From assembly GCF_001278075.1 (NCBI RefSeq), contig NZ_CP011340.1:2418001-2482000 (forward strand): a stretch of DNA of 64,000 bases, given 5' to 3'. Both the position numbers and the translations under genes were made by a program. Under the pieces are notes generated by a model. That model was not told the origin of the DNA and made no database searches. It was given only the letters and a program-made list of their open reading frames with translations. Every line of letters starts with the position of its first letter. Position 1 is the first letter of the stretch. Below are positions 51,295 through 64,000 of this stretch, one piece after another. This DNA is from Streptomyces pristinaespiralis (lineage in GTDB: Bacteria > Actinomycetota > Actinomycetes > Streptomycetales > Streptomycetaceae).

Positions 51295-52080
51295 GTGACC
51301 ACCACCGCCGACAGTGCCACCATCACTGCCCAGGACCGCTCACAGAGCCGATTCGAGCCGGTGCAAGCCATGAATGACGCAGCCACGACCCCGGAGGGGG
51401 CCAAGCCCGGCCGCTCGCTGCCCGGCCGACCTCCCGGCATCCGGGCGGACAGCTCCGGGCTCACGGACCGGCAGCGGCGCGTCATCGAGGTGATCCGCGA
51501 CTCCGTCCAGCGTCGGGGATACCCGCCGTCGATGCGGGAGATCGGCCAGGCGGTCGGACTGTCGAGCACCTCGTCGGTGGCGCACCAGCTCATGGCCTTG
51601 GAGCGGAAGGGTTTCCTGCGCAGGGACCCGCACCGTCCCCGGGCGTACGAGGTCCGCGGCTCCGACCAGCCCAGTAGCCAGCCCACGGACACCACCGGCA
51701 AGCCCGCCGCCTCGTACGTCCCCCTGGTCGGCCGCATCGCGGCCGGTGGCCCCATCCTCGCCGAGGAGTCCGTCGAGGACGTCTTCCCCCTCCCCCGCCA
51801 GCTCGTCGGCGACGGTGAGCTCTTCGTCCTGAAGGTCGTCGGCGACTCGATGATCGAAGCCGCGATCTGCGACGGGGACTGGGTGACCGTGCGACGCCAG
51901 CCCGTCGCGGAGAACGGCGACATCGTGGCGGCCATGCTCGACGGCGAGGCCACGGTCAAGCGCTTCAAGCGGGAGAACGGCCATGTCTGGCTCCTCCCCC
52001 ACAACGCCGCCTACCAGCCCATCCCCGGCGACGAGGCGACCATCCTCGGCAAGGTGGTGGCGGTGCTGCGGCGGGTGTGA
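51295..52080 (+). CDS. lexA: SOS repressor LexA
   Basis: A 261-residue LexA. Residues 55-125 are the winged helix ([45 protein letters not shown]). The self-cleavage site is A150-G151, the nucleophile S185 (VVGDSMIEA) and the general base K222 (TVKRFKRE). RecA filaments trigger its autocleavage after DNA damage. The long acidic/Thr-rich N-terminus is usual in Streptomyces. GTG follows AGAGGGG by five bases. A LexA box precedes the gene, giving autoregulation. Confidence 0.96.
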
Positions 52081-52168: not shown

Positions 52169-54139
52169 CTACTTCCCGTCCTGCTTCGCAGCTGCGTCGA
52201 TGGCGGCCAGCGAGCGTCGTACCTGATTGCGATCCGTCGTGTACCAGAAGTCGGGCAACGAGGCGCGCAGGTAGCTTCCGTAGCGGGCGTTCGCCAGCCG
52301 CGGATCGAGCACCGCGACCACACCCCGGTCCCCTGTGGCACGTACCAGCCGGCCCGCGCCCTGAGCCATCAGCAGCGCGGCGTGGGTCGCGGCCACAGCC
52401 ATGAATCCGTTGCCGCCCGCCTCCTCGACCGCCTTCTGGCGGGCGCTCATCAGCGGGTCGTCCGGGCGCGGGAACGGGATCCGGTCCATGACGACGAGCT
52501 GACACCCCGGTCCAGGCACATCCACGCCCTGCCAGAGCGAGAGCGTGCCGAACAGACACGTCTCCGCGTCCCCGGCGAACGTTTTGATCAACTCGCCGAG
52601 GGTCTCCTCGCCCTGCAGCAGGATCGGCTTGTCGAGACGACCGCGGAGCTCCTCCGCCGCGGCCTGGGCGGCCCGCATCGAGGAGAACAGACCGAGCGTC
52701 CGCCCTCCGGCGGCCTCCACCAGCTCGGCGAGCTCGTCCATCATGTCGCCCCTGGAACCTTCACGTCCCGGCGTGGCGAGATGGCGTGCGACGTAGAGGA
52801 TGCCCTGCTTCGGGTAGTCGAAGGGCGACCCGACGTCGAGCCCCTTCCACTGCGGCACGTCCTCTCCCCCGCTGCCTTCGGGCGCAAGGCCCAGTGAGGC
52901 CCCGACACCGTTGAAGTCGCCGCCGAGCTTGAGCGTGGCGGAGGTCAGGACCACAGAGCGCTCGGAGAACAGCTTCTCCCGCAGCAGCCCGGAGACGGAA
53001 AGCGGCGCCACCCGCAGGGACGCCCCGAACCGGTCGTGCCGCTCGTACCAGACCACGTCGTACTCCGAGCCGTTGCTGATCCGCTCGGCGACGGCGTGGA
53101 CGCTCTCGACGGCGGCCAGGGCCTGCTTGCGCACGGCGTTCTCGTCCTGGACCGACTTGTCCCTGGTGGCCCCGATCGCGGTGATCACGGTGCGGGCCGC
53201 GTCCCTCAGCGCCATCAGCGCGTAACCGAGATCTTCCGGGATCTCCTCGAGACGCCCCGGGAGAGCCAGCTCCATGAGCTTCTCGAAGGACTCGGCGGCC
53301 GTCTGGAGAGCGTCCGCCGCTTTCTCGTTGACGAGCTTGGCGGCGCGCCGCACGGCGCGGTTGACCTGGCCGGGGGTGAGCTCGCCGGTGGCGACCCCCG
53401 TGACCCGGGAGACGAGCTCATGGGCCTCGTCGACGATCAGCACCTCGTGCTGGGGCAGCACCGGGGCGCCTTCGATGGCGTCGATCGCGAGCAGGGCGTG
53501 GTTGGTGACGACGACGTCCGCGAGCTTGGCCCGCTCACGCGCCATCTCCGCGAAGCACTCGGCTCCGTACGCGCACTTGGAGGCTCCCAGACACTCGCGA
53601 GAGGAGACGGAGAGCTGGTTCCAGGCCCGGTCGGAGACGCCCGGGGTCAGGTCGTCCCTGTCCCCCGTCTCCGTCTCGTCGGCCCAGTCGCGCATGCGGA
53701 GCAGGTCCTTGCCCAGCTTGCTCGTGGGCGCCGCCGCCTCGAACTGGTCGAAGAGACCTTCGTCGTCGTCCTGGGGCATGCCCTCGTGCAGACGGTGGAG
53801 GCAGAGGTAGTTCGAACGCCCCTTGAGCATGGCGAACTCCGGCCGGCGGCGCAGCAGCGGGTGCAGTGCCTCGACCGTCCGCGGGAGATCACGCTCCACG
53901 AGCTGCCGCTGCAGCGCCAGCGTCGCCGTGGCCACGACCACTCGCTCGCCGTGGGCCAGGGCGGGAACCAGATAGCCGAGCGACTTGCCGGTACCGGTGC
54001 CGGCCTGGACCAGCAGATGGGATTCGTCGTCGATGGCCTCGGCAACGGCCTCGGCCATGGTGACCTGGCCTGGCCGTTCCACCCCGCCGACGGCGGTCAC
54101 GGCGGCGTGGAGGAGCTCGGGGAGGGATGGCTTCGTCAT
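52169..54139 (-). CDS. DinG/XPD-family ATP-dependent DNA helicase
   Basis: A 656-residue superfamily 2 helicase of the iron-sulphur group. Walker A is GTGTGKS (47-53), the DEAH box is in VLIVDEAHELVSRV, and motif VI is QGAGRLVRATGDRG. Between motifs Ia and II, cysteines in NYLCLHRL, ECLGASKCAYGAEC can hold a 4Fe-4S cluster. It unwinds DNA 5' to 3' and handles R-loops and G-quadruplexes by family knowledge. It is convergent with lexA, the neighbour that fits a DNA-damage role. Confidence 0.92.
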   Translation of the reverse strand: MTKPSLPELLHAAVTAVGGVERPGQVTMAEAVAEAIDDESHLLVQAGTGTGKSLGYLVPALAHGERVVVATATLALQRQLVERDLPRTVEALHPLLRRRPEFAMLKGRSNYLCLHRLHEGMPQDDDEGLFDQFEAAAPTSKLGKDLLRMRDWADETETGDRDDLTPGVSDRAWNQLSVSSRECLGASKCAYGAECFAEMARERAKLADVVVTNHALLAIDAIEGAPVLPQHEVLIVDEAHELVSRVTGVATGELTPGQVNRAVRRAAKLVNEKAADALQTAAESFEKLMELALPGRLEEIPEDLGYALMALRDAARTVITAIGATRDKSVQDENAVRKQALAAVESVHAVAERISNGSEYDVVWYERHDRFGASLRVAPLSVSGLLREKLFSERSVVLTSATLKLGGDFNGVGASLGLAPEGSGGEDVPQWKGLDVGSPFDYPKQGILYVARHLATPGREGSRGDMMDELAELVEAAGGRTLGLFSSMRAAQAAAEELRGRLDKPILLQGEETLGELIKTFAGDAETCLFGTLSLWQGVDVPGPGCQLVVMDRIPFPRPDDPLMSARQKAVEEAGGNGFMAVAATHAALLMAQGAGRLVRATGDRGVVAVLDPRLANARYGSYLRASLPDFWYTTDRNQVRRSLAAIDAAAKQDGK

Positions 54140-54191: not shown

Positions 54192-56138
54192 TCAGGCCGT
54201 CGCCAAGGGGTTGGGCACCGTGCCGTGGACGGCGGCGTGCGGGCGTTCGGGGCGGTCACGGTAGCCGTCGAGATGCAGCCGGTTGCGGTTGAGGCACAGT
54301 CGCTCGATACGGGCGGTGAGCAGGTCGAACGTTTCGTAGCGCTCCTTGAGCCCGGGGAAGCGCGCCTGGTACCGGAGGATCTCCGCCCTGACGAGTGAGA
54401 AGAACTCCGCCTCCGGGACGTTCAGTTGCTCTTCGCACAGCGGGGCGAGGTAGCGGAAGACGCCCACGAAGAGACCCGCGTGGATGAACTGGGTGAGGAA
54501 GCCCGGCTCCTCGGTGAGGAGGATCCGCCGCACGTCCTCCGGCATGGACGCGTGCTCGGGCACCGGCTGGGCGCTCACGTTCACGTCGTCGACGAAGTCC
54601 TTGATCGCGAGGCGGACGGGAACGTCGTGGTCGTCGTAGACGACGATGGCGTTCTCTCCGTGCGGGGAGAAGACCGTTCCGTAGCGGTAGAGGAAGTGCA
54701 GCAGCGGGGGCAGCAGCGCCGCGAAGAGCCGCTGGAGCCAGACGGTCGGGGCGAGCCCCGAGCGGGCGACGAGCTCGGCCGTGAACGCCCGGCCCTGTGG
54801 GTCCGTGTGGAGGAGCGAGGCGAGGGTGCGGGCCCGCTCGCCGGCGTCCAGCCGCGGCTGGAGCGGCTCCCTCCAGATGGCTCCGAGCAGTTCCTTGTAC
54901 TGGTACGGCACCTCTGCCAGGTGGTCGTACAGCGGATGCTCGACCGTGACGGAGGCGACCTCCCCGAGCAGGACGACCCGGCACTCGTCGCGCAGGAACG
55001 GGTCGGCGTCACGCAGCCCGTGCACCCACGCGGTGACGGCGGGGGCGGCGAGAGTGCGCTCTGTGGGCAGGCCGCGCCAGACCAGGGTGTTCAGGATGGA
55101 CAGCGGCAGTTTGACCGTGTGGCGATCGGGACGGTCGACGTTCACGAAGGTCCTGATCGACTGCTGGGGCAGTCGCAGGTCACCGTCGCTGGGCAGGGGA
55201 ACGATGCGGCCGTCCGCGACGGCGGGCGCGTACAGGGGGAGGAGCACTTCGTCCCACTGCCAGGGATGCACCGGGAGGAACAGGTATGCGGCGGGATCGA
55301 GGCCCCTCGCGCGCAGTGCGTCGGCGAAGGACTCGCGGTTCGCCTCGTCGAGCTCGCGGAGATAGAGGTCCTCGGCCCGGTCGAGCCCGGCGACGCCGCG
55401 GTAAGCGGCGAGGCCGGTCCGCACCGCTATCCAGGGGAGGCGTACCAAGCGGCGGGCTTCCGGTGCCCACCGGTCGGCGTCGCCGGCGGAGAAGCCGATC
55501 CGGCCCTTGTTGAGAACCAGCCACGGGTGGCCCGTCTGGTGGCCCTCGAGTTCCGCGTAGCCCAGGTCCGCGAGCTCGGCGGCGGTCAGCGCGGTGCCGT
55601 CGAGCCGGGTGTCGCCGGCCAGGGTGACGGACATTTCGCGCAGCAGGTGGCCGAGGGTGGCTCCGTCGAGCCCCAGCAGGTTCCTGGCCCGCGCGAGGAA
55701 GGCGAGCGGGTCGGTGAAGGGGCGGCCGTCGCATTCGACGGAGGCGGGGTCGACACGCCAGCTTCCGTAGGCGCCGCGGCGGGCGCGGAAGGTGAGCACG
55801 CCTTCGGCGTCGATGGGCAGGGTGTAGCGAAGACCCTCGTCGTCGGGACCTGATCCGGACGGGTCCGGCACCGGCTCGATGATCTCTTCGTAGGCGAACT
55901 CGCCGATCATTTTCGCGAGGAGGCGGGCAGCGGCCCGGTCCCAGTTCTCCCGGGTCAGACCCGGGGGCGTGAACGGCACCTCGTGCGGCTGCCGGGCGGC
56001 GTCTTCGGCGCCGGCGGCATCGTGGGCCGTGGCCGGCCGGGGACCGGTGGAGCGGGAGCCGGTGGGGGCGGAGCCCGAGGGGGCAGAGCCCGAGGATACG
56101 GAGTCGATGGAGTCGTCGCTGGCAGGGGACTTCGGCAC
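54192..56138 (-). CDS. IucA/IucC-family NIS siderophore synthetase (second in operon)
   Basis: A 648-residue ATP-dependent acyl-adenylating synthetase. Conserved segments: TGHPWLVLNKGRIGFSAGD, FLPVHPWQWDEVL, PLPSDGDLRLPQQSIRTF, VKLPLSILNT, and HGENAIVVYDDHDVPVRLAIKDFVDDV. It couples a carboxylate (citrate-type) to an amine or hydroxamate. The first 50 residues are Ser/Pro-rich and disordered. The GTG start has GAGGAG five bases upstream. It is the last gene of a four-gene operon (aminotransferase, synthetase, acetyltransferase, synthetase) and follows the acetyltransferase by 59 bases. Confidence 0.93.
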   Translation of the reverse strand: MPKSPASDDSIDSVSSGSAPSGSAPTGSRSTGPRPATAHDAAGAEDAARQPHEVPFTPPGLTRENWDRAAARLLAKMIGEFAYEEIIEPVPDPSGSGPDDEGLRYTLPIDAEGVLTFRARRGAYGSWRVDPASVECDGRPFTDPLAFLARARNLLGLDGATLGHLLREMSVTLAGDTRLDGTALTAAELADLGYAELEGHQTGHPWLVLNKGRIGFSAGDADRWAPEARRLVRLPWIAVRTGLAAYRGVAGLDRAEDLYLRELDEANRESFADALRARGLDPAAYLFLPVHPWQWDEVLLPLYAPAVADGRIVPLPSDGDLRLPQQSIRTFVNVDRPDRHTVKLPLSILNTLVWRGLPTERTLAAPAVTAWVHGLRDADPFLRDECRVVLLGEVASVTVEHPLYDHLAEVPYQYKELLGAIWREPLQPRLDAGERARTLASLLHTDPQGRAFTAELVARSGLAPTVWLQRLFAALLPPLLHFLYRYGTVFSPHGENAIVVYDDHDVPVRLAIKDFVDDVNVSAQPVPEHASMPEDVRRILLTEEPGFLTQFIHAGLFVGVFRYLAPLCEEQLNVPEAEFFSLVRAEILRYQARFPGLKERYETFDLLTARIERLCLNRNRLHLDGYRDRPERPHAAVHGTVPNPLATA

Positions 56139-56197
56139 GGGGACTCCTCAAGTGGAACCGATGCGGATCGAGCGGTGTATGTAGGTCAGCGGGTTGT

Positions 56198-57073
56198 TCA
56201 CAGCAGGTTCCGCAGGGCGCGGTCACGGACCATCAGGGCGGCTCTCTTGTCGGGAAGGTCGAGTTCGGCGGAGTAGCGGAAGCCTGCGGTGAGAAATGCG
56301 GAGACGGAGGGGGTGTTGCGCATGTCGGGCTCGGCGAGGACGCGGGTGCATCGAGGCCGATTGTCGAGAACGAGATCGGATACGGCTCGAAGGAGGGCGG
56401 ACCCGATGCCACGGCCGCGGTCCACGACGCCGCCGATGAGCAGATGGATACCGGTGTCGTGCGGGCGCGCGGGATAGTGGCGGGCCAGCGGATCGAGGTC
56501 GGCCCGGTAGATCTCGAAGTAGCTCATGGGCTTCTCGTCGAGGACGCCGAGGCAGGGGATGCTCCGGCCGTCACCGTCCAGTTGTGAGCGCAGATGATCG
56601 GCGGTGACGGAGTCGGGTCCGGCCAGCTCCCAGAAGGCGGCGACCGCGGGGTCGTTCATCCATCGGCTGATCAGCGCGAGATCACGTTCGAGGATCACGG
56701 GGACAAGGCGGAAGACGCCGGCGGACGTGTCCGCCGGCTCCCAGCCCCCCAGGTTGTCGAGCAGGTCGCCGACAGGGCCGCCGCCGGTCGTCGCCGGTGC
56801 CCGGGGCGCTGCCGTTGCCTGGCCCCGGCACGCACCGGGAGCCGTTGCCGCGACCGGGCCGCCGGGCCGTCCCGGCTCCCGCACCGGCGCCGGTGCGGGC
56901 GTGGGCGTGGGCGACGCGGGCGATGCCGGGTCCTGCGGCCCGGCACCGTCGTGCCCGCGGAACAGCATGAGGAAGTCGTCCGGCAGCCGTAGGTCGAGCG
57001 TGTCCTCCGCACCCCCTCCCGGCCGGGGCGCGGGGCCGGACCCGCTGTCGGTGTGCGCATCGGTGGGAGGCAA
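56198..57073 (-). CDS. GNAT acetyltransferase of siderophore biosynthesis (RhbD/IucB-like)
   Basis: A 291-residue protein. The first 130 residues are Pro/Ala-rich (SPTPTPAPAPVREPG), then a GNAT domain typical of siderophore acyltransferases: FRLVPVILERDLALISRWMNDPAV, PMSYFEIYRADLDPLARHY, DTGIHLLIGGVVDRGRGIGSALLRAV, and LAEPDMRNTPSVSAFLTAGF. It should acylate an amine or hydroxylamine of the siderophore building block. The TTG start at 57073 is inferred from AGGAG nine bases upstream; no ATG/GTG fits. Low confidence in the exact start, high in the domain. Confidence 0.85.
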   Translation of the reverse strand: MPPTDAHTDSGSGPAPRPGGGAEDTLDLRLPDDFLMLFRGHDGAGPQDPASPASPTPTPAPAPVREPGRPGGPVAATAPGACRGQATAAPRAPATTGGGPVGDLLDNLGGWEPADTSAGVFRLVPVILERDLALISRWMNDPAVAAFWELAGPDSVTADHLRSQLDGDGRSIPCLGVLDEKPMSYFEIYRADLDPLARHYPARPHDTGIHLLIGGVVDRGRGIGSALLRAVSDLVLDNRPRCTRVLAEPDMRNTPSVSAFLTAGFRYSAELDLPDKRAALMVRDRALRNLL

Positions 57074-57117
57074 CGCGGCGCTCTCCTCTCGCGGTTCGGT
57101 CGGTTCGTGGTGGTGCC

Positions 57118-59043
57118 TCAAGATCGGAGGGGGTTGGCGATGGTGACGTAGACGGACTGGGTGTCGACCGGGCCGACGAGTTCGTCGAGCCCGTGGAGCC
57201 GGGTGAGCAGGTTGGCCTTGCAGCGCAGCGTGGGCGTCTGCAGCAGATGGCCGGGCAGTGGTGATCCGGTGCCGGCGGCGGAGGTCAGGAACTGCCGGAA
57301 GGCGGCGAGGAGGACGCGTTCGTCGGCAAGACGCTGGGCTCCGAAGGCTCCGATCAACCCCAGCACGTTGTTGATGCCGAGGTAGTAGGCGAAGCGTTCG
57401 TCGGTGACGTCGTCGGACACGAAGGTGTCGCTGTGGGTCCCGATGCCGGGGAGGCGGGCCGTGAGCCGCTCGCGGTGCGACTCGCGGAAGTAGTAGCCCT
57501 GGTTGTCGCGGTAGCGTCCGCCGGTCGGCCAGCCGTGCGGGTCGAGCAGTACGAGCGTGTTCTGTTGGTGTGCCTCGAGAGCGATACCCGCTGTGGCGTC
57601 CAGCCACAGCACCGGTCGCACGACGTGGTCGAGGTAGCGGAGGAACCACTCCGCCGCCACTGCCGTGACGGGCCGCCCGGTGTGGGCCGCGAGCCGTTCG
57701 ACGACAAGGGCGAGGCGTGAGTGCATGCCCTCCCGCCCGGGCCACGGCCTGGGGGTGGTCAGCGCCGCGACGCAGACCGCGTCGTCCCCGGGGCCGAAGG
57801 GGTTGTGACGGATCATCACGTCGAGCCCCTGCAGGGGTTCGGCCCCAGGGGCGTCGACGGCGAGCCAGGCCGGGTCGCGCACGATGTCGAACCCGGGGTG
57901 TGCGGCCCGCCACTGCTCGGCGAGGCCCGCGCGGAGCAGCCGGTGCACCTCGACGCCCCGGTGGAGTTCCTTGCGGAGGTTCTCCCGCCGCGAGTTGGTG
58001 ATGCGCAGCCCGAGGGAGAGTTTGAGCATGGCGGCCACGCCCGGGCGGTGCACGGTGCGGACGGAGGAGGTGGGGTACCAGACGTCGCCACGGGGACCGA
58101 GGTCGTGCAGCAGGCCGGCGTCCAGGAGGGCCGCCACCGCGGGGCGCTGCCTGATGTCCTGCGCCTGCCACGGATGGAGGGGCAGAGCGGCGGTGTCCGC
58201 GGGGAGCGGGAGATCGCCTCCCGCCAGCCGGGCGGTCAGCTGCTCGGCCGTGACGGTGCGGCCCTGCTCCGTCCAGGCCGATTCCGCGGCAAGGAGGGAC
58301 CGGTCGACGGCCATCCAGTGCAGCGGGAAGGAGCCGTACAACTCGGGCGAGTAGCGCTGTGCTTCGGCTTCCGAAAGCCCTTCCCGGCTCTTGGGGGTCG
58401 GATGGAGCGGGTGGCCGAGCAGCAGCGACTGCTCGGCGGTGAGGAACAGGTCGGCCTCGGGCGGGGCGGTGGGGCGGGCGCGCCGGTCTGCGATGAAGTC
58501 GGCCGTGCGCCGGACGGAGTCGGCGACGCGGCCCACGAGATCCGTGCCTTCGCCGCGGCCGGCCTCGCGGCCGAGCAGTGCGGCGACGGTCACGGCGTCG
58601 GCCCGGGTGGCCTCGTGCGGGCTGCCCTGCAGCGTGGGCGGACCGAATCGGTGCCATCCGGTGGCCGACCAGTAGCGGACGGGGACCAGCAGCGCGGTGC
58701 CGCTGGCGTCGAGGGGGACGCGCAGGATGTCCCCGTCGGGCCGGGGCAGGGCGTTCTCCCGCACCCAGCAGCGGAGCAGGTTCTCCACGGTCGCCGTGTC
58801 GGCGGCACGGCGCGGGTCGGGGTCGTCGAGGTGGTCCGCGTCCTGGTGGGCGGAACGCTCCGGCACGCAGGGGTGCGGGGGGCCGGCTGTCGCCCCGCCG
58901 CGCTGCTCGTCGTCCCGCCCGGTCTGACGTGGCACCGTCGCGGGTTCCAGGGTGAGCGGCCCGCTCACGCCGGCCTTGCTGCGGTGGTGGCCGGCGGGGC
59001 CGTCGTGGGACTCGGGCGCATCGGGTGCGGGTGTGGGGTTCAC
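57118..59043 (-). CDS. IucA/IucC-family NIS siderophore synthetase (first in operon)
   Basis: A 641-residue synthetase. Conserved pieces: LLLGHPLHPTPKSREGLSEAEAQRYSPEL, ALPLHPWQAQDIRQRP, YPTSSVRTVHRPG, LKLSLGLRITNSRRENLRKEL, and EAHQQNTLVLLDPHGWPTGGRYRDNQGYYFRES. The first 80 residues are variable and hydrophilic. GTG is eight bases from AAGGA. It ends with TIANPLRS. The operon order is aminotransferase (29-base gap), this gene, acetyltransferase (44-base gap), second synthetase. Confidence 0.93.
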   Translation of the reverse strand: MNPTPAPDAPESHDGPAGHHRSKAGVSGPLTLEPATVPRQTGRDDEQRGGATAGPPHPCVPERSAHQDADHLDDPDPRRAADTATVENLLRCWVRENALPRPDGDILRVPLDASGTALLVPVRYWSATGWHRFGPPTLQGSPHEATRADAVTVAALLGREAGRGEGTDLVGRVADSVRRTADFIADRRARPTAPPEADLFLTAEQSLLLGHPLHPTPKSREGLSEAEAQRYSPELYGSFPLHWMAVDRSLLAAESAWTEQGRTVTAEQLTARLAGGDLPLPADTAALPLHPWQAQDIRQRPAVAALLDAGLLHDLGPRGDVWYPTSSVRTVHRPGVAAMLKLSLGLRITNSRRENLRKELHRGVEVHRLLRAGLAEQWRAAHPGFDIVRDPAWLAVDAPGAEPLQGLDVMIRHNPFGPGDDAVCVAALTTPRPWPGREGMHSRLALVVERLAAHTGRPVTAVAAEWFLRYLDHVVRPVLWLDATAGIALEAHQQNTLVLLDPHGWPTGGRYRDNQGYYFRESHRERLTARLPGIGTHSDTFVSDDVTDERFAYYLGINNVLGLIGAFGAQRLADERVLLAAFRQFLTSAAGTGSPLPGHLLQTPTLRCKANLLTRLHGLDELVGPVDTQSVYVTIANPLRS

Positions 59044-59072
59044 GGAGGGCTTCCTTGTGACGTGGTCCGGGT

Positions 59073-60449
59073 TCAGTGCGACTGCCTGTTGTCGGTGCGG
59101 CGTTGCGTGGAGCGCTCTGCGGCGGCCAGGGCGTCGGCGAAACGGTCCAGGACGGCCACTGCCTGCTCGTCGGTCAGGGTGAGAGGAGGGAGCAGGCGAA
59201 CGACACCGGCATGGCGTCCGCCCAGTTCGACGATCAGGCCGCGGTGCAGACACTCCTGCTGCACGGCGGCGGCGAGCCGGGGCGAGGGGGGCGGTACGAG
59301 CGCGTCCGGGGCCGCGGAGTCGGCGTCGACGAGTTCGACGCCGATCATGAGGCCCCTGCCCCGTACGTCTCCGATGCAGGGGTGGGCCGCGGCGAGTCCC
59401 TGGAGACTCGCCAGCATGCGCGCGCCGAGTGTCGCGGCGCGCTCGGCGAGGCGGTTCTCCCGCACATGGGCGAGGGTCGCCGCACCGGCCGCCATGGCGA
59501 GCTGGTTGCCGCGGAACGTCCCGGCATGGGCACCGGGGGGCCAGACGTCGAGCCCGGAGCGGTACACGACGACGGCCAGGGGAAGGGACCCGCCGATGGC
59601 CTTGGACATCACCATCACATCGGGCACGACACCGCTGTGTTCGACGCCCCAGAACGTGCCGGTGCGCCCCACACCGGTCTGTACCTCGTCGGCGATGAGT
59701 GGAATGGAGCGGTCGGCCGTGATGGCGCGCATCCTCCGCAGCCACTCGTCGGGCGCCGGGATCACTCCGCCCTCACCCTGCACGGGCTCGAGGATCATGC
59801 CCGCCGGTTCGGGGACCCCGCTCTTGGGGTCGTCGAGCAGGCTCTCCGTCCAGCGGGCGGCGAGTTCCGCGCCCCGCTCGCCGCCGATCCCGAACGGGCA
59901 CCGGTAGTCGTGCGGGAAGGGCAGCCGGGTGACCCGGACGTCCGACGCGCCTCCCGATGCTTCGAGCGCCCCTGCCGTCATGCCGTGGTAGGCGCCGGTG
60001 AAGGCGAGGAGGCCGCTGCGACCGGTCGCCGTCCTGACGAGTTTGAGCGCGGCCTCGACCGCGTCCGTGCCGGCGGGTCCGCAGAACTGGATGCGCCCGT
60101 CCTCTGCCAGCGCCCTCGGCAGTGTGGCGAACAGCTCTGTGGTGAAGGCGTCCTTGACGGGTGTGGCCAGGTCGAGCACATGCAGCGGGGCACCCGAGTC
60201 GATGACCTTCTTGATCGCCTCGAGGACGACGGGGTGGTTGTGCCCCAGCGCCAGGGTGCCCGCACCGGAGAGGCAGTCGAGGTACCGCCGGCCGTCGGCG
60301 CCCTCGATCGTCAGCCCTCTGGCCCGTACCGGCACGATGGGCAGTGAGCGCGCATAGGTGCGGGCCGCCGACTCACGGAGTGACTGCCTGCGCAGAATCC
60401 CCTCATGGGTCGAGGTCGGCGCCACCGGAGCAGGTTCGGTCACGGCCAC
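59073..60449 (-). CDS. Class III PLP aminotransferase, diaminobutyrate-type (RhbA/EctB-like)
   Basis: A 458-residue aminotransferase, likely making L-2,4-diaminobutyrate from aspartate semialdehyde. Features: YLDCLSGAGTLALGHNHP, GPAGTDAVEAALKL, TGAYHGMTAGALEASG, ADEVQTGVGRTGTFWG, and the PLP lysine K283 in VMSKAIGGSLPLA. In rhizobactin/schizokinen-type loci this enzyme starts the pathway toward 1,3-diaminopropane. GTG at 60449 has GGAGG ten bases upstream; an ATG at 60488 lacks a site. It is the first gene of the siderophore operon. I found no TTAGGTTAGGCTCACCTAA-like iron box upstream. Confidence 0.88.
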   Translation of the reverse strand: MAVTEPAPVAPTSTHEGILRRQSLRESAARTYARSLPIVPVRARGLTIEGADGRRYLDCLSGAGTLALGHNHPVVLEAIKKVIDSGAPLHVLDLATPVKDAFTTELFATLPRALAEDGRIQFCGPAGTDAVEAALKLVRTATGRSGLLAFTGAYHGMTAGALEASGGASDVRVTRLPFPHDYRCPFGIGGERGAELAARWTESLLDDPKSGVPEPAGMILEPVQGEGGVIPAPDEWLRRMRAITADRSIPLIADEVQTGVGRTGTFWGVEHSGVVPDVMVMSKAIGGSLPLAVVVYRSGLDVWPPGAHAGTFRGNQLAMAAGAATLAHVRENRLAERAATLGARMLASLQGLAAAHPCIGDVRGRGLMIGVELVDADSAAPDALVPPPSPRLAAAVQQECLHRGLIVELGGRHAGVVRLLPPLTLTDEQAVAVLDRFADALAAAERSTQRRTDNRQSH

Positions 60450-60771
60450 GGCTGTTGGTCCTCCGGCTGTCACAGTTGCGTTGCACATCGGTACGGCACT
60501 GCTGCGGGGCGCACCGGCGCGAAAGGCTGTCCTCGTGTCCCCCGCACGTACCAACGACGCGGGGGGCCGGGGATCACGGCCGATCGGAAGATCCTTGCGG
60601 TGCCGGAACCACGGACCTGCCGCACACCGTCCCCATCGGCACCGGCATAGTGGGGGGCGCCTTCCGACAGCGGACTCCACTGCGGCGGGCAGGAGCTTGC
60701 TCGTACCAGAAGTTCCGCGACAATTCCGACAGTTCAGCTCAGCAGTACCGAAGTCCCAGGGGGATCAAGAG
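60450..60771. other. Divergent promoter region between siderophore operon and first lipoprotein protease
   Basis: About 320 bases. It must hold the promoters of both divergent genes. I see no DmdR/IdeR iron box and no other clear operator. Confidence 0.5.
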
Positions 60772-61947
60772 ATGCGACCCATTCGCCCGACGCTGGCAGT
60801 GGCCTCCATGGCCGCGGTGCTCGCGCTGGCCGCGACCGCTTGCGGCCCGACCGAGGACAATGCCGGCGAAAAGCCGAGCGCGTCGGCCGAGCCGTCCGCC
60901 GACGGCAAGATCACTATTCCGGACGATCTGAAGGACCGCCTCAAGGAGCGCGGGATCGACCTGGACAAGTGGAAGAACGGCGAGTGGAAGAACTGGGACA
61001 AGGACAAGTGGCTGCGTGAGGCGCAGGACTTCGTCAACCCGATCATCGAGGACCTCTGGGACCCCGACCGGATGCGCGATGCCGAACAGCCTCCCGAGAA
61101 GCCGGTCGACAACGACATCTCCGGCGACGAGGGTGTCACCGACCCCACCCCGGCCCCGGTCGACGCGCAGGCCGTGAAGGCCCCGTACCACGCGAGCGCC
61201 GCAGAGGCCGGAAAGGTCTTCTTCGACGGCCCGCAGGGCTCGATGGTGTGTTCCGCCACCGTCGTCAAGGACCCGGCCAACCCCGGTAAGTCCAACATGG
61301 TGTGGACCGCCGGACACTGCGTGCACGCCGGCAAGAGCGGCGGCTGGTACCGCAACATCGCCTTCGTCCCCTCGTACAACGACGGGGCGAAGGAGACGGC
61401 GGAGCTGGAGAAGGCGCCCAAGGAGGAGATCGCTCCCTACGGTGTCTGGTGGGGTGACTGGGCGCAGACCTCGGACCAGTGGATCTCCCAGGGCGCCGCG
61501 ACCGGTGGCCAGGGCGCGGCGTACGACTTCGCCGTCATCCACGTGACCCCGGAGAAGGGCAGCACCGGCAAGTCCCTCGAGGAGACGGTCGGTGCGGCCC
61601 TGCCGGTCGACTTCGACGCCCCCGCGGTGCCGAAGATCGACAACATGACCGCCACGGGCTACCCGGCGGCCCCGCCCTACGACGGGCAGAAGCTCTTCCA
61701 GTGCGCCGACAAGCCCGGCCGTCTGTCGCTCAAGGCCGAGGAGCCGACGATGTACCGCATCGGCTGCACCATGACGGGCGGTTCGTCGGGTGGCGGCTGG
61801 GTCGCAGAGGGCCAGGACGGCAAGCCCGCCCTTGTCTCGAACACCTCGATCGGCCCGGTGACGGCCGGCTGGCTGGCAGGTCCGCGCCTCGGCAAGGAGG
61901 CCGAGGGCGTCTACCAGGCGGTCAGCAAGAAGTTCGCCGGCCAGTAG
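60772..61947 (+). CDS. Trypsin-like serine protease lipoprotein (first tandem copy)
   Basis: A 391-residue predicted lipoprotein. Signal peptide MRPIRPTLAVASMAAVLALA with lipobox ending at C24 (ATAC). Residues 63-84 form a Trp/Lys-rich segment (DLDKWKNGEWKNWDKDKW). The S1-like domain has WTAGHCVHAG (His), YDFAVIHV (Asp) and TMTGGSSGGGW (Ser), so the triad is intact. It is close in sequence to the next gene, from a duplication. Substrate unknown; it acts at the outer face of the membrane. ATG follows AGGGGGATCAAGAG. Confidence 0.88.
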   Translation: MRPIRPTLAVASMAAVLALAATACGPTEDNAGEKPSASAEPSADGKITIPDDLKDRLKERGIDLDKWKNGEWKNWDKDKWLREAQDFVNPIIEDLWDPDRMRDAEQPPEKPVDNDISGDEGVTDPTPAPVDAQAVKAPYHASAAEAGKVFFDGPQGSMVCSATVVKDPANPGKSNMVWTAGHCVHAGKSGGWYRNIAFVPSYNDGAKETAELEKAPKEEIAPYGVWWGDWAQTSDQWISQGAATGGQGAAYDFAVIHVTPEKGSTGKSLEETVGAALPVDFDAPAVPKIDNMTATGYPAAPPYDGQKLFQCADKPGRLSLKAEEPTMYRIGCTMTGGSSGGGWVAEGQDGKPALVSNTSIGPVTAGWLAGPRLGKEAEGVYQAVSKKFAGQ

Positions 61948-62142: not shown

Positions 62143-62260
62143 CCATGACACGCTCATGGCAAACAGCTCTGGCGGCGCCCTGTCGGCGTACGTCGCGCAC
62201 ACGGTGCGAGCACTTCCAGCACATGTCGAAGATTCGAAGCATTCAGGGGGAATCGTTTCC

Positions 62261-63430
62261 ATGCGATCCATACGTCCGTTGCTGGCCGCGGCCGGTCTCG
62301 TCTCGGCCCTCGCGCTGACGGCGACGGCCTGCGGCCCGAGCGAGACCAACTCGGCCGACAAGCCGGCCGCATCCGGCGCCGCCGCGGACGACGGCGGTGC
62401 CGCGCTCCCCGCGGACCTGGCCGACAAGCTCAAGGAGCAGGGTGTCGACCTGGACAAGTGGAAGAACGGCGAGTGGAAGAACTGGGACAAGGACAAGTGG
62501 CTGCGTGAGGCCAAGGACTTCGTCAACCCGGTGATCGAGGGCCTGTGGAAGCCCGAGCGGATGACGACGGCCAAGGCACCCGCCAAGACCATGGCGGCCG
62601 GCGACATCTCCGGTGACCAGGACGTGACCGACCCGGAGCCGCGCCCCGTACAGGCCGAGCCCGAGAAGAAGCCGTACCACAAGAACGCCGCCCCGGTCGG
62701 CAAGGTGTTCTTCGACGCCCCCGAGGGCTCGATGGTCTGTTCCGCGACCGTCGTCAAGGACCCGAAGAACCCGGGCAGGTCCAACATGGTGTGGACCGCG
62801 GGCCACTGCGTGCACGCCGGACAGGCGGGCGGCTGGTACCGCAACATCGCCTTCGTCCCCGCGTACAACGACCAGGGCAAGTCCCCCGCCGCGCTGGAGA
62901 ACGCGCAGCCGCAGGAGGTCGCACCGTACGGCGTGTACTGGGCCGACTGGGTCGCGACCTCCGCCGGGTGGATCGACGAGGGCGGCCCCACGGGCGGCAC
63001 CGGCGCTCCGTACGACTACGCCGTGATGCACGTGAAGCCGGAGAAGGGCACCAAGTCCCTCGAGGAGACGGTCGGCGTCGCCCTGGACATCGACTTCGAC
63101 GCCCCCGAGGCCAAGGACATCAGCGCCATGGGTGCCTGGGGCTACCCGGCCGCCCCGCCCTACGACGGGGCTCTCATGCACAAGTGCGTGGACCGGCCCG
63201 GACGGCTGTCCATCGCCCCCGGCACGCCGACGATGTGGCGGATCGGCTGCACCATGACGGGCGGTTCCTCCGGCGGCGGCTGGTTCGCTGAGCAGCCCGA
63301 CGGAAAGCTCGCGCTCGTCTCCAACACCTCGATCGGTCCGGTGACTTCGGGCTGGCTGGCGGGGCCGCGGCTGGACCAGGACGCACAGCAGCTCTTCACC
63401 ATGATGAGCGAGAAGTTCGCCGGCCAGTAG
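62261..63430 (+). CDS. Trypsin-like serine protease lipoprotein (second tandem copy)
   Basis: A 389-residue paralogue of the preceding gene. Signal peptide MRSIRPLLAAAGLVSALALT, lipobox cysteine C24. The Trp/Lys-rich segment is identical in the two copies (DLDKWKNGEWKNWDKDKW), although flanking sequence differs. Catalytic motifs WTAGHCVHAG, YDYAVMHV and TMTGGSSGGGW are intact. The start is an ATG ten bases from GGGGG. It ends with a strong terminator at 63475-63511. The two genes probably have separate promoters. Confidence 0.88.
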   Translation: MRSIRPLLAAAGLVSALALTATACGPSETNSADKPAASGAAADDGGAALPADLADKLKEQGVDLDKWKNGEWKNWDKDKWLREAKDFVNPVIEGLWKPERMTTAKAPAKTMAAGDISGDQDVTDPEPRPVQAEPEKKPYHKNAAPVGKVFFDAPEGSMVCSATVVKDPKNPGRSNMVWTAGHCVHAGQAGGWYRNIAFVPAYNDQGKSPAALENAQPQEVAPYGVYWADWVATSAGWIDEGGPTGGTGAPYDYAVMHVKPEKGTKSLEETVGVALDIDFDAPEAKDISAMGAWGYPAAPPYDGALMHKCVDRPGRLSIAPGTPTMWRIGCTMTGGSSGGGWFAEQPDGKLALVSNTSIGPVTSGWLAGPRLDQDAQQLFTMMSEKFAGQ

Positions 63431-63527: not shown

Positions 63528-64000
63528 TCAGTGCGCGGCAGGCACGAACGGAGACAGCGCCGCGGCCAGCTCCTCGTGCACCCGCGCCTTCAGCAGAGTG
63601 CCTTCCGTGGTGTGTTCCTCGGAGAGCACCTCACCGTCGGCGTGCACCCGCGAGACGAGCCCGCCCTCGGTGTAGGGCACGAGCGCCTCGATCTCGATCT
63701 GCGGCCGCGGCAGCTCGTCGTCGATCAACTGCACGAGCTCGGCCATGCCGGCGCCGGTCCGCGCCGACACCGCGATCGCGTGCCGCTCGATGCGCAGCAG
63801 CCGCTGCAGCACGAGCGGATCGGCCGCGTCCGCCTTGTTGATCACCACGATCTCGGGCACGTCGACCGCACCCACGTCGCGGATCACCTCGCGCACGGCC
63901 GCCAGCTGCTCCTCCGGTGCCGGGTGCGATCCGTCGACCACGTGAAGGATCAGGTCGGAGTCCCCGACCTCTTCCATCGTGGAGCGGAACGCCTCGACGA
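63528..64000 (-). CDS. hflX: GTPase HflX, C-terminal part (cut by window edge)
   Basis: The last 157 or so residues of a ribosome-splitting GTPase. Visible are AFRSTMEEVGDSDLILHVVDGSHP, the G4 guanine-binding NKAD in IVVINKADAADP, and a G5-like VSARTGAG; the C-terminal domain (EIEALVPYTEGGLVSRVHADGEVLSEEHTTEG) matches HflX. The N-terminal domain and P-loop lie outside the window. Confidence 0.9.
   Translation of the reverse strand, partial: VEAFRSTMEEVGDSDLILHVVDGSHPAPEEQLAAVREVIRDVGAVDVPEIVVINKADAADPLVLQRLLRIERHAIAVSARTGAGMAELVQLIDDELPRPQIEIEALVPYTEGGLVSRVHADGEVLSEEHTTEGTLLKARVHEELAAALSPFVPAAH

Follow-up and report, generated by a model that had tools for sequence, protein, structure and literature searches.

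How might a bacterium complete a siderophore from an operon that encodes two siderophore synthetases without a decarboxylase or an N-hydroxylase at their side? The operon in question lies in a 64,000-nucleotide stretch of the Streptomyces pristinaespiralis chromosome (NZ_CP011340.1, positions 2,418,001 to 2,482,000; hereafter the window) and belongs to a pathway for nonribosomal peptide synthetase (NRPS)-independent siderophores (NIS). We suggest that a schizokinen-type NIS pathway is divided between this operon and a decarboxylase and N-hydroxylase gene pair at C1:6419101-6421877, and that the two halves work together. We assign this reading a probability of about 0.75. The operon looked incomplete because two of the six enzymes are encoded almost 4 Mb away. 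The chemistry of such a pathway is known, and the two-site architecture is unusual.

The four genes described by an original prediction made from sequence alone are present on the minus strand in the order stated there and are supported by Pfam, with intergenic gaps of only 29, 44 and 59 nt. The gene heading the operon (59073..60449) encodes a class III aminotransferase (PF00202, 291.6 bits), which exceeds the cut-off of the TIGR00709 'dat' model (490.5 against 401.6 bits) and has its closest solved structure in the diaminobutyrate-2-oxoglutarate transaminase 6rl5. The protein is RhbA/Dat-like by these scores and is predicted to convert aspartate semialdehyde to L-2,4-diaminobutyrate. It is followed by NIS2A (57118..59043), a type A synthetase of the IucA/RhbC kind with the domains PF04183 and PF06276 (IucA_IucC and FhuF), closest to the IucA structure 5jm7 (1e-50). 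NIS2A starts with GTG at 59043, and searches were run with 57118-59040, one codon in. The third gene (56198..57073) encodes a GNAT acyltransferase of the IucB/RhbD kind (Acetyltransf_8, PF13523, 160.3 bits) with an N-terminal extension; its start is likely a TTG at 57073, and the Pfam query spanned 56198-57100. The last gene, NIS1C (54192..56138, start codon uncertain), encodes an IucC/RhbF/DesD-like type C synthetase, again with PF04183 and PF06276, whose closest solved structures are DesD, AlcC and IucC (1e-84 to 1e-97). As predicted, the window holds no PF00282 or PF13434 gene, the nearest of the matches listed lying 0.9 Mb or more off. A transporter was likewise found neither among the immediate neighbors by Pfam nor, by reading only, in the predicted gene list.

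The missing functions are encoded elsewhere on the same chromosome. The genome is a single 8.53 Mb contig, and whole-genome profile searches placed PF00282 at five sites and PF13434 at ten. At C1:6419101-6421877 on the plus strand, 3.9 Mb from the window operon, a PF00282 decarboxylase gene (454 residues) adjoins a PF13434 flavin N-hydroxylase gene (471 residues), the ATG of the hydroxylase overlapping the decarboxylase stop codon. The pair is flanked by genes read as pepN upstream and as a 5'-nucleotidase and a pyruvate kinase downstream, with no synthetase at the site. About 1.4 kb of G+C-rich, repeat-like and apparently non-coding DNA separates pepN from the decarboxylase (L015:11600-12950). 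Among solved structures, the diaminobutyrate decarboxylase 2qma comes closest to the distant decarboxylase, which keeps the HK motif with the pyridoxal phosphate-binding lysine. The hydroxylase scores 382.9 bits with PF13434 and is nearest in structure to 6xbb ('Monooxigenase'), a putrescine N-hydroxylase and a desferrioxamine hydroxylase. In phylogenetic trees, the pair falls outside the clade of DesA and DesB, and the des genes are located at another place in the genome (C1:5533903-5538737). Genome-wide, only three NIS synthetase genes were found, the two of the window and desD. The original prediction had considered enzymes borrowed from elsewhere, direct use of diaminobutyrate, or carboxylate/amide ligands instead of hydroxamates. 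The genome-wide search for RhbB and RhbE homologues supports borrowing through the pair at C1:6419101-6421877. Direct use of diaminobutyrate gained no support, and neither did carboxylate/amide ligands.

Taken together, the two sites could account for a six-step route. The aminotransferase would produce L-2,4-diaminobutyrate, which the distant decarboxylase would convert to 1,3-diaminopropane and the distant flavin N-hydroxylase would turn into N-hydroxy-1,3-diaminopropane. The GNAT enzyme would acylate this intermediate to a hydroxamate, the type A synthetase would couple one such arm to citrate, and the type C synthetase would attach the second. The expected product would be schizokinen or a near analogue. 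The individual reactions, their substrates, the identity of the acyl group, expression of both sites together and the product are all inferred. That the product is schizokinen itself seems to us slightly better than an even bet, an estimate lowered a little in view of the higher RhbB-model score of DesA compared with the distant decarboxylase.

Both halves are nearly ubiquitous in the genus. Among 200 Streptomyces genomes searched for both NIS2A and the hydroxylase, NIS2A was matched in 193 (1e-30), three of them weakly only (G030, G131, G196; G numbers denote genomes and L numbers loci), and found no match in seven (G012, G025, G026, G087, G122, G124, G134). The hydroxylase reached 1e-170 in 182 of the same genomes. 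All candidates were re-examined in 25 genomes, namely the 18 below 1e-170 together with G107, G127, G012, G026, G030, G131 and G196. Eight of the 18 hold the pair or part of it in fragmented, contig-end or rearranged form (G010, G039, G067, G077, G094, G186, G188, G192), five lack both pair genes and the operon (G025, G087, G122, G124, G134), and in five the operon is there but the pair is incomplete or missing (G108, G041, G114, G193, G007). The operon seems merely broken by assembly in G026 and G196 because the type C synthetase sits near contig ends. In G010, a single contig, pieces of the pair lie far apart (L148, C1:4362898-4363587 and 9017958-9018359), by rearrangement or misassembly.

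On one side, the slot of the operon is bordered by hflX and two divergent genes, on the other by dinG-lexA-nrdR-nrdJ (lexA, nrdR, nrdJ and hflX named by reading). Read directly, it is empty in G025, G124, G134, G012 and G030, holds another gene in G122 and a 55% aminotransferase alone in G087, and coincides with a contig end in G131. The pepN slot lacks the pair in G025, G087, G124 and G134; pepN was not found in G122. Operon and pair are thus present in nearly all of the 200 genomes and jointly missing in five, through one or two losses. Besides the S. pristinaespiralis genome, 20 genomes picked for matching both halves carry each half in its usual slot; where both fall on one contig (14 genomes), the distance between them is 3.7-4.9 Mb. 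All 20 are complete except G199, without type C synthetase, and G042, which has lost the split aminotransferase, NIS1C and decarboxylase but still has the type A synthetase, the GNAT gene and the hydroxylase, and in which a linked cluster is also present.

Homologues of the two halves occur side by side in other loci. Three of the five genomes with an operon and no complete pair have such a cluster: G108, G041 and G114 carry a contiguous aminotransferase-decarboxylase-type A-hydroxylase-type C series (L142-L144). A fourth, G193, has its own decarboxylase beside such genes. This last locus (L145) comprises decarboxylase, type A synthetase, hydroxylase, a FecCD permease and a binding protein, lies near pepN and has iron boxes. 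Its decarboxylase groups next to the split clade amid synthetase and hydroxylase of the linked type, and the cluster may have landed on a native gene. At 1e-40, NIS2A found matches in 84 of 393 genomes searched across the class, and 42 of the 84 lie outside the genus. We fetched 18 of these 42, drawn from the stronger matches and not including all such, as well as two second copies within the genus. In 18 of 18 fetched loci outside the genus, decarboxylase, NIS2A, hydroxylase and NIS1C stand in one cluster. The aminotransferase is seen in 16, with L301 and L308, which starts at a contig end, as the exceptions. L301, from another family, has decarboxylase-type A-GNAT-hydroxylase-type C between miaA-hflX and dinG-lexA, the very slot of the window operon, and is one case only.

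Trees place the split genes with the linked ones. These were quick searches with 25-28 rows each, chosen from 43-47 extracted, in which long branches (including L301, L320, L146 and the des rows) and odd composition (the des rows, L145 and two split decarboxylases) were flagged. The split hydroxylases form one clade (support 99) grouped with 11 linked ones (84) and apart from DesB. The split decarboxylases form one clade (89), adjoined by L145 (100), grouped with 12 linked ones (96) and apart from DesA. Split NIS2A sequences are one clade (100), as are the split NIS1C sequences (99), which L301 adjoins (94). The split genes and the linked clusters thus share ancestry.

The idea that a linked cluster of the L142 kind always replaces the split pair proved only partly true. 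The split hydroxylase is missing in seven of ten genomes with such a cluster (G108, G041, G114, G193, G442, G450, G474) and kept in three (G042, G589, G590), the cluster being inferred from 51-59% identical matches in G450, G474, G589 and G590. It is also kept in G340, which has a linked cluster of another kind (L320), and in G544. Some linked clusters of other Streptomyces hold additional genes. In L142 and L145, Pfam recognizes a gene resembling fold-III Orn/DAP/Arg decarboxylases, and in L142 also one resembling glutamine synthetase; gene reading finds such extras in L143, L144, L319 and L382, not each in every cluster. These genes suggest that the clusters with them may make a decorated product.

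Several observations weigh against a pathway shared by the two sites. The RhbB model is the top NCBIfam model for the distant decarboxylase at 287 bits against a cut-off of 900, but DesA of the same genome reaches 421 bits on this model, also below 900, so the model leaves the substrate of the decarboxylase unsettled. The top hydroxylase model likewise gives 405 bits for the distant enzyme and 379 for DesB, both under the cut-off of 700. Outside the genus, the clustered decarboxylase is nearer DesA in 12 of 18 loci and nearer the split one in six. The joint absence of both halves reflects one or two events rather than five, with G025, G124, G134 and G122 forming one clade of the DinG tree and G087 nearby. 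G007 (740 contigs) has the operon and no pair was found in it, the pair is fragmented in G010, and the hydroxylase is retained beside an empty operon slot in G012, without decarboxylase, and in G030, at a contig end. No regulator common to both halves has been shown. The type C synthetase is also less constant than the other genes. Loci nearest to NIS2A were named for the best 80 of 288 relatives found, a sample biased to near ones; all 80 are Streptomyces, and DinG is visible beside the operon in 75 and not seen in five. NIS1C is present in 58 of these 75 loci and lacking in 17. In eight of the 17 genomes and in G199, the sole type C enzyme is DesD-like (36-38% identical), and all nine retain the split hydroxylase. 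The six-step scheme cannot stand unchanged in these genomes because only the DesD-like type C enzyme remains. Operons without type C synthetase accompanied only by a DesD-like enzyme are those of L170, L255, L258, L260, L264, L265, L270, L256 and L271. In favor of the proposed pathway, schizokinen has been reported from liquid chromatography-mass spectrometry of S. anulatus RLA103 and assigned there to biosynthetic gene cluster (BGC) 1.15 (PMC11865988). A second study reports it tentatively for Streptomyces sp. SL03 and S. mutomycini SL02, from BGC1.9 and presumably BGC2.11, respectively (PMC13136089). The passages seen of both papers do not describe the genes of these clusters.

Whether the two halves belong together at all can be questioned, as both could be old core genes of Streptomyces that form separate systems, with the pair serving another pathway. 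Their near-universal presence means that co-occurrence alone says little, the joint losses number only one or two, and G012 and G030 keep the hydroxylase without the operon. We nevertheless find this quite improbable, given that homologues of both halves are co-clustered in all 18 loci outside the genus and in L142-L144, and that the only NIS synthetases found in the own genome are DesD and the two of the window. The operon might instead yield a carboxylate/amide metallophore from diaminobutyrate and citrate, with neither decarboxylase nor hydroxylase. Such a product would suit the non-local position of both enzymes, an aminotransferase that fits diaminobutyrate, and the operon of G007 without a detected pair. 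It appears very unlikely, as the genome contains a matching pair whose occurrence goes with that of the operon, both functions recur in the homologous clusters fetched, and the acyltransferase belongs to a family that acylates hydroxylamines.

Marginally less probable still is an operon that borrows DesA and DesB to build cadaverine-based arms of an arthrobactin-like product. The des genes are present, DesA beats the distant decarboxylase on the RhbB model, and G042 has lost the split aminotransferase and decarboxylase and keeps type A synthetase, GNAT and hydroxylase, although its linked cluster could provide the lost steps. Against such borrowing stand the dedicated diaminobutyrate aminotransferase at the head of the operon, the co-occurring pair that is not of the Des type, and four genomes (G025, G122, G124, G134) that retain des genes without operon and pair. 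The schizokinen-type pathway divided over two sites is the reading that we prefer.

The original prediction had noted no iron box near the operon, and scans with an iron-box consensus agree: none was found at up to 6 mismatches in the 64-kb window or in the 20 kb around the pair (L015). The same scans recovered the des locus at 2 mismatches and an NRPS/hydroxylase locus (L019) at 3, and no site with fewer than 6 mismatches appeared in three shuffled versions of the window. At up to 5 mismatches, an iron box was found in none of 40 split loci (8-11 kb; 20 genomes, two loci each) and in 20 of 24 linked clusters (L142-L145 and 16 of L301-L320, three only at 5 mismatches), with none in the linked L301, L302, L305 and L308, of which L308 is truncated by a contig end. 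The original prediction had also named, as what would overturn it, an adjacent or iron-coregulated locus encoding the missing steps of a known siderophore such as schizokinen. By gene content, the distant pair probably supplies just such steps for a predicted schizokinen-type product; iron co-regulation was not found in these scans.

The region upstream of the operon is conserved. In an alignment of 20 Streptomyces loci, a non-coding leader or promoter region divergent with the neighboring gene (60450..60740, minus strand) shows strongly conserved blocks over about 230 nt upstream of the aminotransferase (the window's locus included; two loci largely gapped), and a shorter conserved block lies upstream of the decarboxylase. 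Rfam searches of the operon upstream region gave chance-level matches only, none at the gathering score. The region contains a two-box element, CGTGAT-N16-CGTTGG (60551..60578, minus strand), with 3 mismatches to the sigma-BldN site CGTAAC-N16-CGTTGA printed in PMC2375139. Among 20 upstream regions for each gene, the own genome included, a site with up to 3 mismatches occurs before 18 aminotransferase genes and 10 decarboxylase genes, compared with 8% and 5% of block-shuffled sequences of the respective sets; the genomes are related, and in one of the 18 (L171) the match lies elsewhere in the region. Before the other ten decarboxylase genes there is no such match, and the recurrent element agrees with the published site at only 9 of 12 positions. 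We keep the putative BldN-like element at both sites as a lead.

A three-gene locus of S. coelicolor may be informative here. SCO5799-SCO5801 presumably occupies the same slot as the window operon, judging by the gene order dinG-lexA-nrdR-nrdJ, and the original prediction was probably right to compare the operon with a cryptic second NIS locus of Streptomyces. The passages seen list this locus as 'siderophore synthetase type' (PMC3224560) and 'putative siderophore' (PMC7324645). If this correspondence by gene order holds, a listing of three genes would fit the form without type C synthetase (17 of 75 loci). In the part seen of a table on S. coelicolor surface cultures (PMC3610822), SCO5799 and SCO5801 are positive in all three columns, whose headings were outside that part, and SCO2782 (desA) and all seven listed genes of the coelichelin region (SCO0490-SCO0499) are negative in the last two. 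This pattern fits developmental control and does not show it. SCO5799 and SCO5800 also appear among transcripts changing in a copper study (tables of PMC6414726, seen in part). One could speculate that the pathway, split over two sites in most Streptomyces and free of an iron box, is under developmental control through a sigma-BldN-like promoter at both sites and serves late mycelium or sporulation, with DesD completing the product, or a half-molecule being made, where the type C synthetase was lost. We consider this unlikely, and more so since schizokinen came from SM17, named by its authors as the sole medium without added iron and the sole one with significant siderophore (PMC13136089, in the part seen), which is the pattern of plain iron control.

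The locus is found in nearly every Streptomyces genome examined and was previously listed as a siderophore cluster without a product. Cluster-finding programs would score it incomplete because they consider neighboring genes. Reading the two loci together would make the product predictable and could provide a genetic basis for the reports of schizokinen in Streptomyces. It would also point to a siderophore pathway of the genus core in which the iron box, common among its linked relatives, is missing. We found no paper connecting the two loci in the open-licence PubMed Central literature, and the passages seen of PMC9205884 and PMC4255298 hold nothing on the window locus.

A DinG-like helicase gene (52169..54139, minus strand; PF13307, PF00270), a neighbor outside the pathway, follows the operon and, together with lexA (51295-52080, plus strand, named from sequence reading), marks the slot. 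On the other side, two genes for secreted proteins diverge from the operon on the plus strand, one with a weak trypsin-like match (60784-61947) and a second similar to it without a Pfam match (62252-63430), followed by the end of hflX on the minus strand (63528-63977, name read from sequence). Of the secreted-protein genes, one or both persist in G025, G087, G122, G124, G134 and G030 despite the absence or reduction of the operon there. Elsewhere on the chromosome, mirror matches of identical score (G000:C1:169258-188811 and 8343782-8363335) suggest terminal inverted repeats of the chromosome that extend inward for at least about 188 kb.

Among known systems, the desferrioxamine genes desABCD encode related decarboxylase, hydroxylase and type C families, and differ in having iron boxes nearby, sequences outside the split clades and a lysine/cadaverine substrate. 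Aerobactin iucABCD shares the IucA/IucC pair and the GNAT enzyme; its pathway starts from lysine and needs no diaminobutyrate aminotransferase or decarboxylase, whereas the window operon is headed by such an aminotransferase. A close counterpart in function is rhbABCDEF of Sinorhizobium meliloti for rhizobactin 1021 and schizokinen, which covers all six of the enzyme functions, with synthetases of both the IucA and the IucC type. There, the six genes form one linked, iron-regulated cluster with transport functions, in contrast to four and two genes set 3.9 Mb apart and no iron box found here. The roles of RhbB, RhbE, RhbD and RhbF/C are as cited in the part seen of PMC3534580. Haloferax volcanii HVO_B0046-B0041 (dat, bdb, iucABDC) encodes a six-gene schizokinen route on a hexacistronic, iron-repressed transcript (PMC7407949, seen in part). 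The route proposed there from aspartate through diaminobutyrate to schizokinen is the same as the one we suggest for S. pristinaespiralis, where two distant operons would take the place of the single transcript.

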